From the NCBI GenBank assembly GCA_025352685.1, contig JANXSN010000107.1:1-64000 (forward strand): a DNA stretch of 64,000 nucleotides, given 5' to 3'. The translations under genes and the position numbers were made by a program. Of the stretch, positions 1,025 through 4,993 are shown one piece after another. The notes beneath the pieces are model-generated. The model ran no database searches. It was not told the origin of the DNA and worked only from the letters and a program-made list of their open reading frames with translations. This DNA is from Sphingomonadales bacterium. GTDB taxonomy: Bacteria > Pseudomonadota > Alphaproteobacteria > Sphingomonadales > Sphingomonadaceae. Numbering within the stretch: position 1 is the first letter of the stretch; each line of letters opens with the position of its first letter.

Positions 1025-1352
1025 TGGTGCGGGCGGTGGGAATCGAACCCACACGGGCCAAAGCCCAACGGATTTTCATACCAGCTACGGCTTTCACCGC
1101 CGCCCCACTGCCCCTGATCGGGGTCGGGCGTTTGTGGTCTGGACTATCCCTTCACCGTGCTTCGGCAATGCCGAAGGTTAGGTGCTGCCCGTCTAGTCTC
1201 TACACCTTCCGAGCTACTTTCGTAGCGCGGCTTGGCTCGGGATCGCCATGTGAAAGGGTTCCCCGAATTTGAGCAGTTCTGCACCGCGAGTTTCCCCGCG
1301 AGCACTCAATTTGACTTAAGTCCGTTGCGTCTACCGATTCCGCCACGCCCGC
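1025..1352 (-). tRNA. tRNA-Leu(UAA) gene interrupted by a group I intron
   Basis: Read on the minus strand, exon 1 (1352-1318, 35 nt) gives acceptor GCGGGCG, a D arm and the 5' half of the anticodon stem ending CTT. Exon 2 (1076-1025, 52 nt) starts AAAATCCGT. It continues through a long variable arm typical of tRNA-Leu, a T arm with TTCGATT and acceptor CGCCCGC, and ends in discriminator A with encoded CCA. Joining the exons gives an 87-nt tRNA with anticodon stem ACGGA/TCCGT and loop CTTAAAA, so the anticodon is UAA. The interruption lies between U34 and A35, the position used by cyanobacterial and plastid tRNA-Leu introns. Exact ends were read by eye from base pairing. Confidence 0.95.
1077..1317 (-). 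ncRNA. Group I self-splicing intron in the tRNA-Leu(UAA) anticodon
   Basis: This 241-nt insertion has group I landmarks. The last exon bases ACTT can pair with intron GAGT to form P1 with the expected U·G at the splice site. The intron ends in G (base 1077). Its interior carries AATTCGGGGAACCC, then CGATCCCGAGCCAAGCC, and then a P7 pairing between GAGACTAGAC (1200-1191) and ATAGTCC (around 1148-1141). These strings closely resemble those of the cyanobacterial tRNA-Leu intron (subgroup IC3). No open frame for a homing endonuclease fits inside. Splicing is inferred from this architecture; it is required for a functional tRNA. Confidence 0.92.
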
Positions 1353-1434: not shown

Positions 1435-2871
1435 GTGATGATCGACTGCCATCCACTGGCCCTGACACTCCGAAGCCGCGTGGTCGACGCGGGTGTCGTC
1501 GCCTTGTTCGCGCTTGTCTTGATGTGGGCGGCGCTGTGGAATGGGTTTCCGCTCATTTTTCCTGACAGTGCGACCTACTTTGGGATCGCGTTCGAGCACC
1601 AGTACGCCGTCGACCGATCCAGTTTTTATGGGCTGATTCTAAAACCGATTCTCTCAACCATGCCTGTCATGGCCGGACTTTGGGTCGGCATCTTGGCTCA
1701 ATGCTGTGCGATTGCAGTTGTTGTCATGATCGCCGCACGTCGCTTGATTCCTTCATGGTCCTGCGCGCGCTTTCTACCTCTTTTTGCGCTGCTGGCGATC
1801 ACGACGTCGATTGCATGGCACGCCGGTCAATATATGCCCGATGCGTTCACGGGAGTAACGGTGTTACTCGCATGGCTTGCTGCTACTCGAGATCCGTCAG
1901 ATGACGGCGCACCCGCCCTTTGGCTGGCTGCATCAGTGTCGGCACTCATGCACTACACGCACATTCCGCTGCTCTTAGCCGTTTCCTTTGTCACTATTAT
2001 TTTCAGTCCGGCAGCAACCCGACGCTTGCACAGTCTTCTCCGACGGGGGGGTGCTGGGCTTGTTTCGGTTGGGGCGGCAGCGGCAATTCTTGTCGGCGCG
2101 AACGGCATGCTGCTCGGTCGCTGGACGCTTGCCCCGATGGCGCCTGCTTTCCTCTTTGCCAGACTTACCGAAGATGGCTTGACGAAACCCTGGCTGGACG
2201 AGAATTGCGGGACGATCGCGCCCCATGATTTGTGTGCAATCCGACACGATCTTGCCGACAACAGCCAGGTGTTGCTCTGGAATGGAGGCAGTCCTTACGC
2301 AAACCGTATCTGGCATGCCCCATCAGATAGTGAACGTTGGCGTTGGGTTGGTATGCTTGCGACGACAAATGAGGGAGCGATTGCATCGCGCCCTTTAATT
2401 TTTTTCGAGAATTCTCTGCGCGGAGCGTTCCGTCAGTTTATCAGCTTTCAGGCACTCGATGACGAGTGTCCGCATTCATGCTGGAGTCTCGACACCGGTC
2501 CTGCAAATGCACTTGCCAACTATGCGCCCGAAGCGCTTAAATTCTATCGGGGCTCGCGTCAGGTTAATGGGACGCTTCCTCGGACCATGATCCGATCGAT
2601 CACAACGCCCGTCGCGATCGCGGCGATGCTCCTCGTTCCGCTTCTTTTCTGGCAAGCCGTCAAGCGTCGAGACAGGCTGGTTCAGTCCTTGCTCGCAGCT
2701 CTTACGGTCGCCCTGATCGCCAATGCGGCCGTTGCCGGTGCGATGTCTGACGTTCACGATCGGTATCAAAGCCGGCTGGTATGGCTCGTCCCGTTGACGG
2801 TCGCCCTGATTGTCCTGCGCTGGCGTCAGACGTTGAGTCGATCGCGCATTTCTTTGCCGGGCTTGAAATAA
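1435..2871 (+). CDS. Polytopic membrane protein, possibly GT-C-like; function unknown
   Basis: This 478-residue protein is dominated by hydrophobic segments. About five lie in the first 220 residues, a soluble loop spans residues ~225-385, and further membrane helices occur at ~390-415 and ~425-465. A DSATYF motif shortly after the first helix and the loop/helix layout recall GT-C type glycosyltransferases and related polytopic enzymes, but I do not recognise a named family. The start is GTG at 1435 or ATG at 1438; no clear ribosome site separates them. Its last 46 bases overlap the 3' end of ihfB on the opposite strand. It stands alone on its strand. Confidence 0.7.
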
Positions 2872-3104
2872 GGCACGCGTTTGGCATCAATTGCGACGGC
2901 GTCACCCGTTCGCGGATTCCGTCCAGTGCGACCGCCACGGGCACGCGTCGAAAACGTTCCGAAGCCGCGCAACTCGACGCGACCGCTAGCAGCAAGCTGT
3001 CCAACGATTTCGTCGAAAAAGCACGACACAATGTTTTCAATGTCGCGGACGGTAAGACCGGGATTTTCGGCGGCCAGTTTAGTCACAAGTTCGGATCGTA
3101 TCAC
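2826..3104 (-). CDS. ihfB: Integration host factor subunit beta
   Basis: This 92-residue protein is the beta chain of IHF, a sequence-specific DNA-bending heterodimer used in transcription, replication and recombination. The whole length matches the HU/IHF fold: N-terminal helices ([14 protein letters not shown]), the [11 protein letters not shown] strand turn, and the DNA-contact arm ending in RNPRTGDAV, followed by [15 protein letters not shown] chose the GTG at 3104 because a GAGGA site lies 7 bases upstream and because longer frames add 24 non-homologous residues. It follows rpsA on the same strand, the classic rpsA-ihfB order. The IhfA partner is not in the window. Confidence 0.93.
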
Positions 3105-3195
3105 GGGGTTTCCTCGCTTTCCGTCACAAATGCTGACGGCTGCGTGCGGTGAAGGACGCCCGAACACACGAGACACCGCACGCCGAGTGTAACGT

Positions 3196-3271: not shown

Positions 3272-4993
3272 TTACTTTTTTGTGGTGTCGCGTGCCTTCA
3301 GCGCTTCTCCAAGAATATCGCCAAGCGACGCTCCCGAGTCGGACGAACCATATTGAGCCACGGCCTGCTTCTCTTCGCTTATCTGCATTGCCTTGATCGA
3401 GAAGGTTGGCTTTTTCGACCGGTCGAAGCCTGTGACCATTGCATCGAACTTTTGTCCCGTCTGGAAGCGTTCGGCGCGCTGCTCGTCGCGGTCGCGGCCA
3501 AGGTCGCTGCGCTTGATGAAACCGGTGGCCCCATCATCACCGACCTGAACCTCAAGGCCCCCATCGCGCACCTCGAGTACGGTGACGGTGACGATGCTGT
3601 TCTTGGCAAGACTTAACTCGCCGCCGGTTGTGGTCGTTCCGCCAACAGCGGGAGCGCCCTTTTCAAGCTGCTTCATTCCAAGGGAGATACGCTCCTTGTC
3701 GGCTTCTATCGCGAGCACGATTGCTTGGACGGTCTCGCCTTTGCGATGCAGGTTAAGCGCGTCTTCTCCCGAGATTCCCCATGCAATGTCCGACATGTGG
3801 ACCATGCCGTCGACGTCGCCGTCGAGTCCGATGAACAGCCCGAATTCGGTGGAATTCTTCACTTCGCCTTCGACAGTCGAACCGACAGGATGGTCGGCAG
3901 CGAACTGCTCCCAAGGATTTGAAATTGCCTGTTTGAGGCCGAGAGAAACCCGGCGCTTCTCGCTATCTACCTCAAGGACAATGACATCGACTTCCTGTGA
4001 AGTTGAGACAATCTTGCCTGGATGAACGTTCTTCTTGGTCCACGACATTTCGCTGACGTGAACAAGACCTTCGATGCCCGGCTCCAGTTCGACGAACGCG
4101 CCGTATTCGGTGATGTTCGTGACGCGACCCGACAGTTTGGCGCCAATCGGATACTTCTCTTCAGCGCCATCCCACGGATCGCTCTCCAACTGCTTCATGC
4201 CCAGCGAGATGCGCTGCGTGTCCTTGTTGATGCGAACGATCTGTACCTTGACCGTGTCACCGATGTTGATGACCTCCGACGGATGATTGACGCGCTTGTA
4301 GCTCATGTCCGTGACATGGAGCAGTCCGTCGATTCCGCCGAGATCGACAAACGCACCGTAATCCGTGATATTTTTGACGACGCCGTCGATGATTTGACCT
4401 TCGCTCAGCGTCGAAATGAGACCGGTACGGGCTTCGGCACGGCTTTCCTCGAGGATCGCGCGACGCGACACCACGATGTTGCCGCGCTTGCGGTCCATCT
4501 TCAGGATCTGGAATGGTTGCGGAATGTCCATCAGTGGCTGGACGTCGCGCACCGGACGGATATCTACCTGCGAACCGGGCAAGAAAGCCACGGCACCGTC
4601 AAGGTCGACAGTGAAGCCGCCTTTGACGCGACCGAAGATGACACCGTCGACGCGGGCCGACTTGGTGAATTCCTGTTCGAGCTTGTCCCAGGCAGCTTCG
4701 CGGCGGGCGCGGTCGCGTGAGAGCATCGCTTCGCCGTGCATGTTTTCGACACGATCAACAAAAACTTCGACTTCGTCGCCGACTTTCAGATCCGCTTTTT
4801 GGCCGGGAGCGGCGAATTCGCTCAACCGGACGCGGCCTTCAGACTTCAGACCAACGTCAATGACGGCAAGGTCGTTCTCGATGGCGGTAACGATTCCCTT
4901 GACGACTTTGCCCTCAAAAGTGCCATCAACACCGAGGGTTTCTTCAAGGAGGGCCGCGAAATCGTCGCGTGTCGGAAGTGCGGCTGTCGCCAT
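3272..4993 (-). CDS. rpsA: 30S ribosomal protein S1
   Basis: This 573-residue protein binds mRNA on the 30S subunit and helps initiate translation of structured or leaderless-poor messages. Six S1 (OB-fold) repeats can be followed at about residues 28-95, 113-180, 199-267, 284-354, 371-441 and 455-524. Each repeat is marked by G-AFV-L or similar strands and an EGLVHVSE-type turn. Length is normal for alphaproteobacterial S1 (about 560-575). The start ATG at 4993 gives MATAALPTRDDF, a typical N-terminus. It lies downstream of cmk and upstream of ihfB on the same strand, with 177 bases of leader before it. Confidence 0.97.
   Translation of the reverse strand: MATAALPTRDDFAALLEETLGVDGTFEGKVVKGIVTAIENDLAVIDVGLKSEGRVRLSEFAAPGQKADLKVGDEVEVFVDRVENMHGEAMLSRDRARREAAWDKLEQEFTKSARVDGVIFGRVKGGFTVDLDGAVAFLPGSQVDIRPVRDVQPLMDIPQPFQILKMDRKRGNIVVSRRAILEESRAEARTGLISTLSEGQIIDGVVKNITDYGAFVDLGGIDGLLHVTDMSYKRVNHPSEVINIGDTVKVQIVRINKDTQRISLGMKQLESDPWDGAEEKYPIGAKLSGRVTNITEYGAFVELEPGIEGLVHVSEMSWTKKNVHPGKIVSTSQEVDVIVLEVDSEKRRVSLGLKQAISNPWEQFAADHPVGSTVEGEVKNSTEFGLFIGLDGDVDGMVHMSDIAWGISGEDALNLHRKGETVQAIVLAIEADKERISLGMKQLEKGAPAVGGTTTTGGELSLAKNSIVTVTVLEVRDGGLEVQVGDDGATGFIKRSDLGRDRDEQRAERFQTGQKFDAMVTGFDRSKKPTFSIKAMQISEEKQAVAQYGSSDSGASLGDILGEALKARDTTKK

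Follow-up and report, generated by a model that had tools for sequence, protein, structure and literature searches.

The tRNA-Leu(UAA) gene of a Sphingomonadales bacterium (Alphaproteobacteria) is interrupted by a group I intron, and our reading, to which we give a probability of about two in three, is that an integrative mobilizable element once carried it as a rescue tRNA gene; an intron inside the attachment (att) core would hide such a copy from the integrase, and splicing would restore the tRNA. The gene lies in a stretch of 64,000 nucleotides, which is called the window below.

The steps envisaged are as follows. In relatives, a dedicated tyrosine integrase would recombine a short core, GACTTAAAAT, which forms part of the anticodon loop of the host's own tRNA-Leu(UAA), and the two halves of that gene, 5' and 3', would come to lie at opposite ends of the element. 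With a core of only about 10 nt the host gene would not be rebuilt, so the element must bring a working tRNA-Leu(UAA), which it would supply as a complete gene near its integrase. With an unaltered core this spare copy would be open to the integrase as well, and two solutions would serve, namely a changed loop base, or a self-splicing intron in the core that leaves the mature tRNA unchanged. With the intron placed between CTT and AAAA, within the core, splicing would give a normal tRNA, and the integrase should not recognise the rescue copy because the intron sits inside the core. In the lineage of the window the integrase would have been lost, and the rescue gene would remain at the old hupB locus.

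The window gene and its intron

The interrupted gene occupies positions 1352-1025 on the minus strand. Its 5' exon (1318..1352, -) terminates in ACGGACTT, the last base of which is U34, and its 3' exon (1025..1076, -) begins with AAAATCCG and continues through the encoded CCA. Between them lies a 241-nt intron (1077..1317, -) whose last base is G and which is overlapped by two open reading frames (ORFs) of 81 aa and 64 aa. The boundaries (1352-1318, 1317-1077 and 1076-1025) agree with the original prediction of a 241-nt insertion between U34 and A35, and the joined exons form an 87-nt tRNA-Leu with the anticodon loop CUUAAAA and the anticodon UAA. The Rfam model RF00028 matches positions 1077-1317 over the full length of the intron with 42.4 bits (E 2.3e-9, 801 bases searched); in the whole genome (3.2 Mb) this is the sole RF00028 match reported (E 2.2e-9), and no other group I intron was reported by that search. 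The gathering score of RF00028 is 50, and a default Rfam scan of the window omits the intron because its score falls below that value. ARAGORN run on the window also missed the interrupted gene, and that both programs did so is a warning for annotation.

Together with this sub-gathering match, a fold of 146 introns (the window and 145 relatives) confirms the predicted group I intron in the tRNA-Leu(UAA) of an alphaproteobacterium. The fold yielded one common structure with double-sided changes at many pairs; these were seen in P1, P2, P3 and the helices that stand where P6, P8 and P9 belong, and none in P4. The window forms all listed helices but for one pair, including P3 and the P1 with U34.G at the splice site that had been pointed out beforehand. 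One listed helix, which uses GACUA, is probably an artefact, because the folding program cannot draw the P7 pseudoknot. The strings of P7, which had likewise been noticed, recur as AGACTA...TAGTC in 160 of 161 introns, checked as strings only. The exon core GACTT|AAAA is present in 161/161 introns, GACTT having been required in advance by the locus patterns and AAAA by the splice-site rule. Intron lengths range from 195 to 281 nt across the 161 measured, and the window intron contains no homing endonuclease gene, for which these lengths are too short. Five of the 166 introns, those whose 3' splice site was not located by the rule, were left out of the tree, and four were left out of the fold. 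The window intron combines a conserved core, a U.G pair of P1 at the 5' splice site and a terminal G with its Rfam score below the gathering score, and it is apparently sound and of the self-splicing type.

In the assembly, whose 116 contigs may leave gaps, no second tRNA-Leu(UAA) was found: the 38 tRNA matches have other anticodons, and blastn with the joined exons and a pattern for the intact gene gave no further UAA-Leu gene. Since none was found, the reading of UUA in this host should depend on splicing, as the original prediction held. A simple sigma-70 scan found no promoter for the window tRNA gene.

Genomic neighbourhood of the window gene

The gene hupB, encoding an HU-type DNA-binding protein (2826..3176, -; Pfam PF00216, E 2e-28), often precedes tRNA-Leu(UAA) in the family, with the intron present or absent, in the loci compared. 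Upstream of hupB, in a conserved position, is a 573-aa ORF (3272..4993, -), presumably ribosomal protein S1-like. Between hupB and the tRNA lies a 478-aa ORF (1435..2871, +) that has no Pfam match and no tblastn match in the other intron loci compared; it takes the place expected of an integrase. A frame at the contig start (3..806, +) contains the C-terminal part of an IS256/Mutator-type transposase (PF00872, E 4.3e-25, profile positions 296-379 of 379). The IS256-type scar that had been announced beyond the 3' end of the tRNA is accordingly present as this C-terminal part only (E 4e-25), the frame ending at 806, 219 nt past the tRNA. The contig stops at this insertion sequence, on the side on which the body of an element would be expected. 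The window locus contains no integrase and no native 5' half, and an orphan 3' half was not found in its genome; the features of tRNA-dependent integration are absent from the window's own locus, where the contig ends on the element side.

Two related integrases lie elsewhere in the same genome (G000) beside tRNA-Leu(CAA) rescue genes, at C12:108681-110265 (L059) and C112:3-656 (L229), and the C12 locus also keeps a broken native CAA 5' half. A 5'-half match at C12:108681 had been a candidate second UAA gene and was rejected, as it is the half of a tRNA-Leu(CAA) left by the related integrase.

Native tRNA genes split at integrase-linked loci

In genome G148, hupB is followed by a tRNA-Leu(UAA) 5' half ending after GACTTAAAAT, a tyrosine integrase and a complete intron-bearing tRNA-Leu(UAA); the native 3' half starts at GACTTAAAAT, 26.9 kb downstream on the same strand. 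Genome G340 has the same arrangement with its halves 20.4 kb apart. An integrase of this family precedes the gene in the same orientation at 41 of 146 intron loci, which is not an unbiased rate, because most intron loci were found by the intron pattern, and the 146 contain six pairs of identical loci. The end of the integrase is usually 96-206 nt ahead of the GTAGAC of the tRNA. No such integrase was seen in 83 of the 146 loci, all with at least 1500 nt upstream, and the other 22 have less than 1500 nt.

In 23 of the 41 loci the integrase comes after a 5' half that is left of a broken native tRNA-Leu(UAA). For 22 of these 23 halves the match to a tRNA stops at most a few bases from GACTTAAAA; in L188 it stops further on, and the break in the native gene of L188/L220 (G018) lies past the variable arm. 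When the 23 genomes with a 5' half were searched with the core and the 3' half, 19 gave matches, at 22 places; 20 of these places are without a complete 5' half and represent orphan 3' halves, in 18 of the 23 genomes, and the other two are intact genes. Four genomes had no match in this search and one had an intact gene only. The orphan halves L302 and L309 retain an additional piece of the 5' half, about 12 nt long. Taking one pair of native halves per genome and allowing G-U, the acceptor and anticodon stems pair at 12/12 positions in 14 of 18 genomes and at 11/12 in the other four. As controls, halves from different genomes gave 12/12 pairing in 20 of 306 combinations, and native 5' halves with the 3' exon of the rescue copy in 1 of 18. 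In eight genomes (G148, G340, G624, G626, G629, G631, G633 and G636) a single contig holds both integrase and orphan half, on the same strand and separated by about 6 to 48 kb. Among the relatives are thus found a tyrosine integrase, a short intragenic core, a tRNA that is not rebuilt and a cognate tRNA carried along, which are the marks of tRNA-dependent integration. Judged by this gene order, tRNA-Leu(UAA) is broken in the anticodon loop by mobile elements that bring a complete copy. No such integrase was present in the stretches examined around eight intact UAA loci.

Two further arrangements were noted. In locus L125, from an Erythrobacter metagenome-assembled genome (MAG), one integrase is preceded by two tRNA-Leu(UAA) 5' halves in succession, which lie 1382 and 1617 nt ahead of the intron gene, as if the site had been hit twice. 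In Sphingobium cupriresistens, the genome of L081, two orphan 3' halves (L310 and L314) lie 22 kb apart on one contig and are identical over the matched stretch, which suggests tandem elements.

The integrase and the content of the elements

The integrase matches PHROG 1 (E 5.5e-32) and, weakly and slightly below the cut-off, the phage integrase family PF00589 of Pfam; it had no match in NCBIfam and no meaningful match among solved structures. A phage origin was rejected, as 50,697 phage records gave 0 matches. In a search reaching close relatives only, one IMG/VR contig matched. Matches were found in 24 plasmid records, three of which were searched for a rescue tRNA-Leu by regular expression, and none was found in them. 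On plasmids of Rhizobium sp. (L263) and Asticcacaulis excentricus (L265), an orphan-like 3' half, of tRNA-Lys in the first and of tRNA-Met in the second, was seen by eye upstream of a related integrase.

The elements of G148 and G340, delimited in full (27 and 20 kb), both encode a MobA/VirD2-like relaxase (PF03432) and a coupling protein. That of G148 also carries a Fic protein, an SNF2 helicase weakly like DISARM DrmD, GmrSD and an ArdC antirestriction protein, and that of G340 a type I restriction system and AbiEii. Phage structural genes were absent from the subset of ORFs scanned in the two elements. From this gene content we call them putative integrative mobilizable elements, and a transfer apparatus may lie among the ORFs outside the scan.

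Surveys starting from the integrase

Searches were run from the integrase side to avoid selecting by the intron. The integrase was found in 13 of 199 genomes of the host family, 14 of 385 of the class and 65 of 390 of the family of a Caulobacter MAG, on which the third sample was centred because that MAG carries such an element. A total of 118 integrase loci were classified, which come in part from related genomes and are non-independent; the partial matches L230, L231, L253 and two or more further fragments were left unclassified. In the class sample, integrase and intron gene occur together in 7 genomes (14 and 11 of 385, respectively; Fisher 4.5e-9). In G000, G355 and G598, however, the integrase does not lie beside the intron gene.

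A broken UAA half is present at 34 of the loci, of which 33 are resolvable (L370 runs into a contig edge), and an intron-bearing copy accompanies 32 of these 33. The intron-bearing gene follows the integrase in 25 of the 34 and was found on a wider look in seven more: about 4 kb downstream in L348 and L356, likewise downstream in L353 and L354 (via the contig loci L066, on a contig of equal length, and L123), and in L364, L378 and L384 only at a second integrase 11-24 kb on in the same contig (L326, L325 and L324). The exception, L374 in genome G948, has an intronless tRNA-Leu(UAA) with the core GATTTAAAA in place of GACTTAAAA.

Elements that break tRNA-Leu(CAA) were not seen to have an intron. 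Their rescue core, GATTCAAAA or CACTCAAAA, differs from the broken core in 15 of the 15 readable pairs, the pair of L375 having been read by eye. The script recognised no rescue gene for 15 of 30 CAA halves, among which L320 has one 1.2 kb on and L322 a degraded one. A UAA-tRNA can read UUG by the wobble rule, and for this reason CAA halves without a recognised rescue gene fit a dispensable CAA-tRNA. The CAA-type rescue gene of L222 (G031) is in turn broken just behind its anticodon loop, as though a further element had struck it.

Further integrases of the family are located at tRNA-Leu(UAG), Met, Arg and Lys genes, and 13 of the 118 loci lie behind an intact Met, Arg or Lys tRNA. At 20 of the 118, no 5' half, rescue tRNA or other tRNA was recognised before the integrase; these include L222, a CAA case by eye, and L242, with an intron gene 2.1 kb on. 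The gene upstream in L240 is a decayed tRNA.

Distribution of the interrupted gene and kinship of the window copy

A pattern combining the 5' exon and the intron core matched at least 118 contig stretches. Among the matches listed, nearly all are Alphaproteobacteria or unspecified Proteobacteria according to the record titles, the exceptions being Tahibacter, two Porisulfidus, two gammaproteobacterial MAGs, one Burkholderiales MAG and two MAGs labelled Acidobacteria. With the own genome counted, the interrupted gene is present in 15 of 199 genomes of the family sample and the pattern matches in 11 of 385 of the class sample; genome G250 carries the interrupted gene and escaped the pattern, so that pattern counts miss at least one. 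These numbers speak against the initial impression that this pairing of host and gene is unusual, and the suggested transfer or independent lineage explains it less well than an element's rescue tRNA, which the interrupted gene is in many relatives. An intact pattern occurs in 130 of the 199 family genomes, both forms in none and neither in 54.

Presence and absence of the intron alternate inside genera g1, g2 and g16. In g2, the intact gene of G200 and intron-bearing exons share 83 identities in 88 columns, a near match that suggests precise intron loss. The interrupted gene of G153, in the family sample, is identical to that of Zymomonas mobilis (L129) over the 250 nt compared. Eight IMG/VR viral contigs (L255-L262) contain an interrupted tRNA-Leu(UAA) with the same pattern, and in the stretches of them that were examined an integrase of this kind is absent. 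Group I introns were also seen by eye in other tRNA genes of the order, namely tRNA-Lys(UUU) in L033 (G086) and tRNA-Arg(UCU) in L032 (G090), and there are group I matches apparently outside tRNA genes in L042 and L041 (G030 and G032, same family); the examined stretches of these four loci have no such integrase.

By tree path, the introns nearest to that of the window are L215 (same genus, 88% identity) and then L125 from Erythrobacter, both linked to an integrase, that of L215 being incomplete; third is L214 of G002, which is not integrase-linked. Support in this tree is weak, and no branch with good support contains the intron of the window. The joined exons of the window match L215, L125 and the integrase-less G002 at 84/87 positions each and the intact gene of G003, of the same genus, at only 72/87, so that probably the whole gene was replaced in the window's lineage, rather than an intron inserted alone. 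The joined native gene of G148, whose sequence had been truncated, was left out of this exon comparison. Integrase-linked and unlinked loci are mixed on the intron tree, with at least 30 label changes, the weak support leaving gain and loss indistinguishable; such mixing is expected if integrases were lost repeatedly. Linked introns also cluster more than shuffled labels do. The copy in the window is probably a stranded rescue gene whose integrase is gone.

Discussion

Alternative readings of the interrupted gene were considered. The gene and its insertion site are shared with cyanobacteria, which could point to a tRNA-Leu intron that the window's lineage alone acquired recently, from a cyanobacterium or a plastid; given intron relatives in the genus, the family and the class of the host, we find this scarcely credible. 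Almost as improbable is a decayed pseudogene, with another tRNA decoding UUA. The helices are intact save for one pair, the exons are intact with their CCA and no other UAA gene was found, which together outweigh the Rfam score below the gathering threshold, the lack of a promoter in the simple sigma-70 scan and the incomplete assembly.

A more serious alternative, which we nevertheless hold to be unlikely, is that alphaproteobacterial tRNA-Leu(UAA) genes have long harboured the intron and that the elements took their tRNA from an intron-bearing host. Its position in the att core would then be a coincidence, because intron and integrase both use the conserved anticodon loop. The intron is widely distributed, many of its loci are without an integrase, and the insertion site is the same in cyanobacteria, so the intron may predate the elements. 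Anticodon loops are also common att sites, according to PMC8371274. Against this alternative stand the changed cores of the intronless rescue genes (15/15 CAA pairs and the one UAA exception), which one would expect to see were an unaltered core not tolerated, and the intron-bearing copy at 32 of the 33 resolvable broken-UAA loci found through the integrase. From the position of the intron and the consistent core changes in intronless rescue genes, we infer that the intron may shield the spare copy from the integrase.

A wider proposal, on which our judgement is evenly divided, extends the rescue reading. Mobilizable elements would break an essential tRNA and carry a spare guarded by a self-splicing intron in the integrase core, a form of immunity at the DNA level whose cost would be erased in the RNA; they would have spread endonuclease-less tRNA-Leu introns through the Alphaproteobacteria, and a stranded copy would vaccinate its host against further such elements. 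This touches two old puzzles, the spread of group I introns without homing endonucleases among tRNA genes and the choice of the anticodon loop. If masking is true, the intron has a selectable job, the element can land in an essential tRNA without exposing its own spare, and the host depends on the element's ribozyme for reading UUA.

The intron itself has known counterparts. Cyanobacterial tRNA-Leu(UAA) has a group I intron at the same insertion site, and Xu in 1990, Zaug in 1993 and Rudi in 2002 are said, to go by their titles, to have treated the tRNA-Leu intron of the cyanobacterial type. Introns in tRNA-Arg of alpha-purple bacteria were reportedly described by Paquin in 1999, and a tRNA-Leu intron in a gammaproteobacterium by Vepritskiy in 2002. 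The gene, the site and the group I fold are alike in the cyanobacterial case, whereas here an integrase and the replacement of a tRNA gene go with the intron. A report of a tRNA-Leu intron beside an integrase was not found in the open-licence literature searched, which most subscription journals lie outside. The description of tRNAscan-SE 2.0 states that some bacterial tRNA genes seem missing owing to group I introns outside the design of the program (PMC8450103).

Archaeal tRNA introns have been proposed to act as masks of viral attB sites (PMC4090602, in the part describing Randau and Soll 2008), and the attP of mobile genetic elements to act as an intron vector (PMC8371274, in the part describing Sugahara 2012). 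As far as these passages go, the proposals are like ours in that an intron of the anticodon loop breaks the target of an integrase and mobile elements serve as intron vectors. The archaeal introns, in contrast, are removed by proteins and were proposed to protect the host (PMC4090602), whereas the intron here is of the self-splicing type and lies in the element's own rescue gene.

The closest parallel is tRNA-dependent lysogeny, described for phages of Actinobacteria by Guerrero-Bustamante and Hatfull in 2024 (PMC10865867), in which a tRNA carried by the element compensates for a host tRNA that is not restored; phage Gaia, for instance, encodes a tRNA-Leu-CAA downstream of int. In the portions of that article available, the shared features are a tyrosine integrase, a core of ~10 bp in a tRNA gene and an element tRNA of the same isotype, and the word 'intron' occurs once, in a reference title. 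Unlike those phages, the two delimited elements encode a relaxase together with a coupling protein, and their scanned ORFs include no phage structural gene; moreover, a group I intron here interrupts the rescue gene within the core, and the hosts are mostly alphaproteobacterial. The integration logic is therefore already known, and what is new here is a rescue tRNA, apparently borne by an element, with a group I intron in the core of the integrase.
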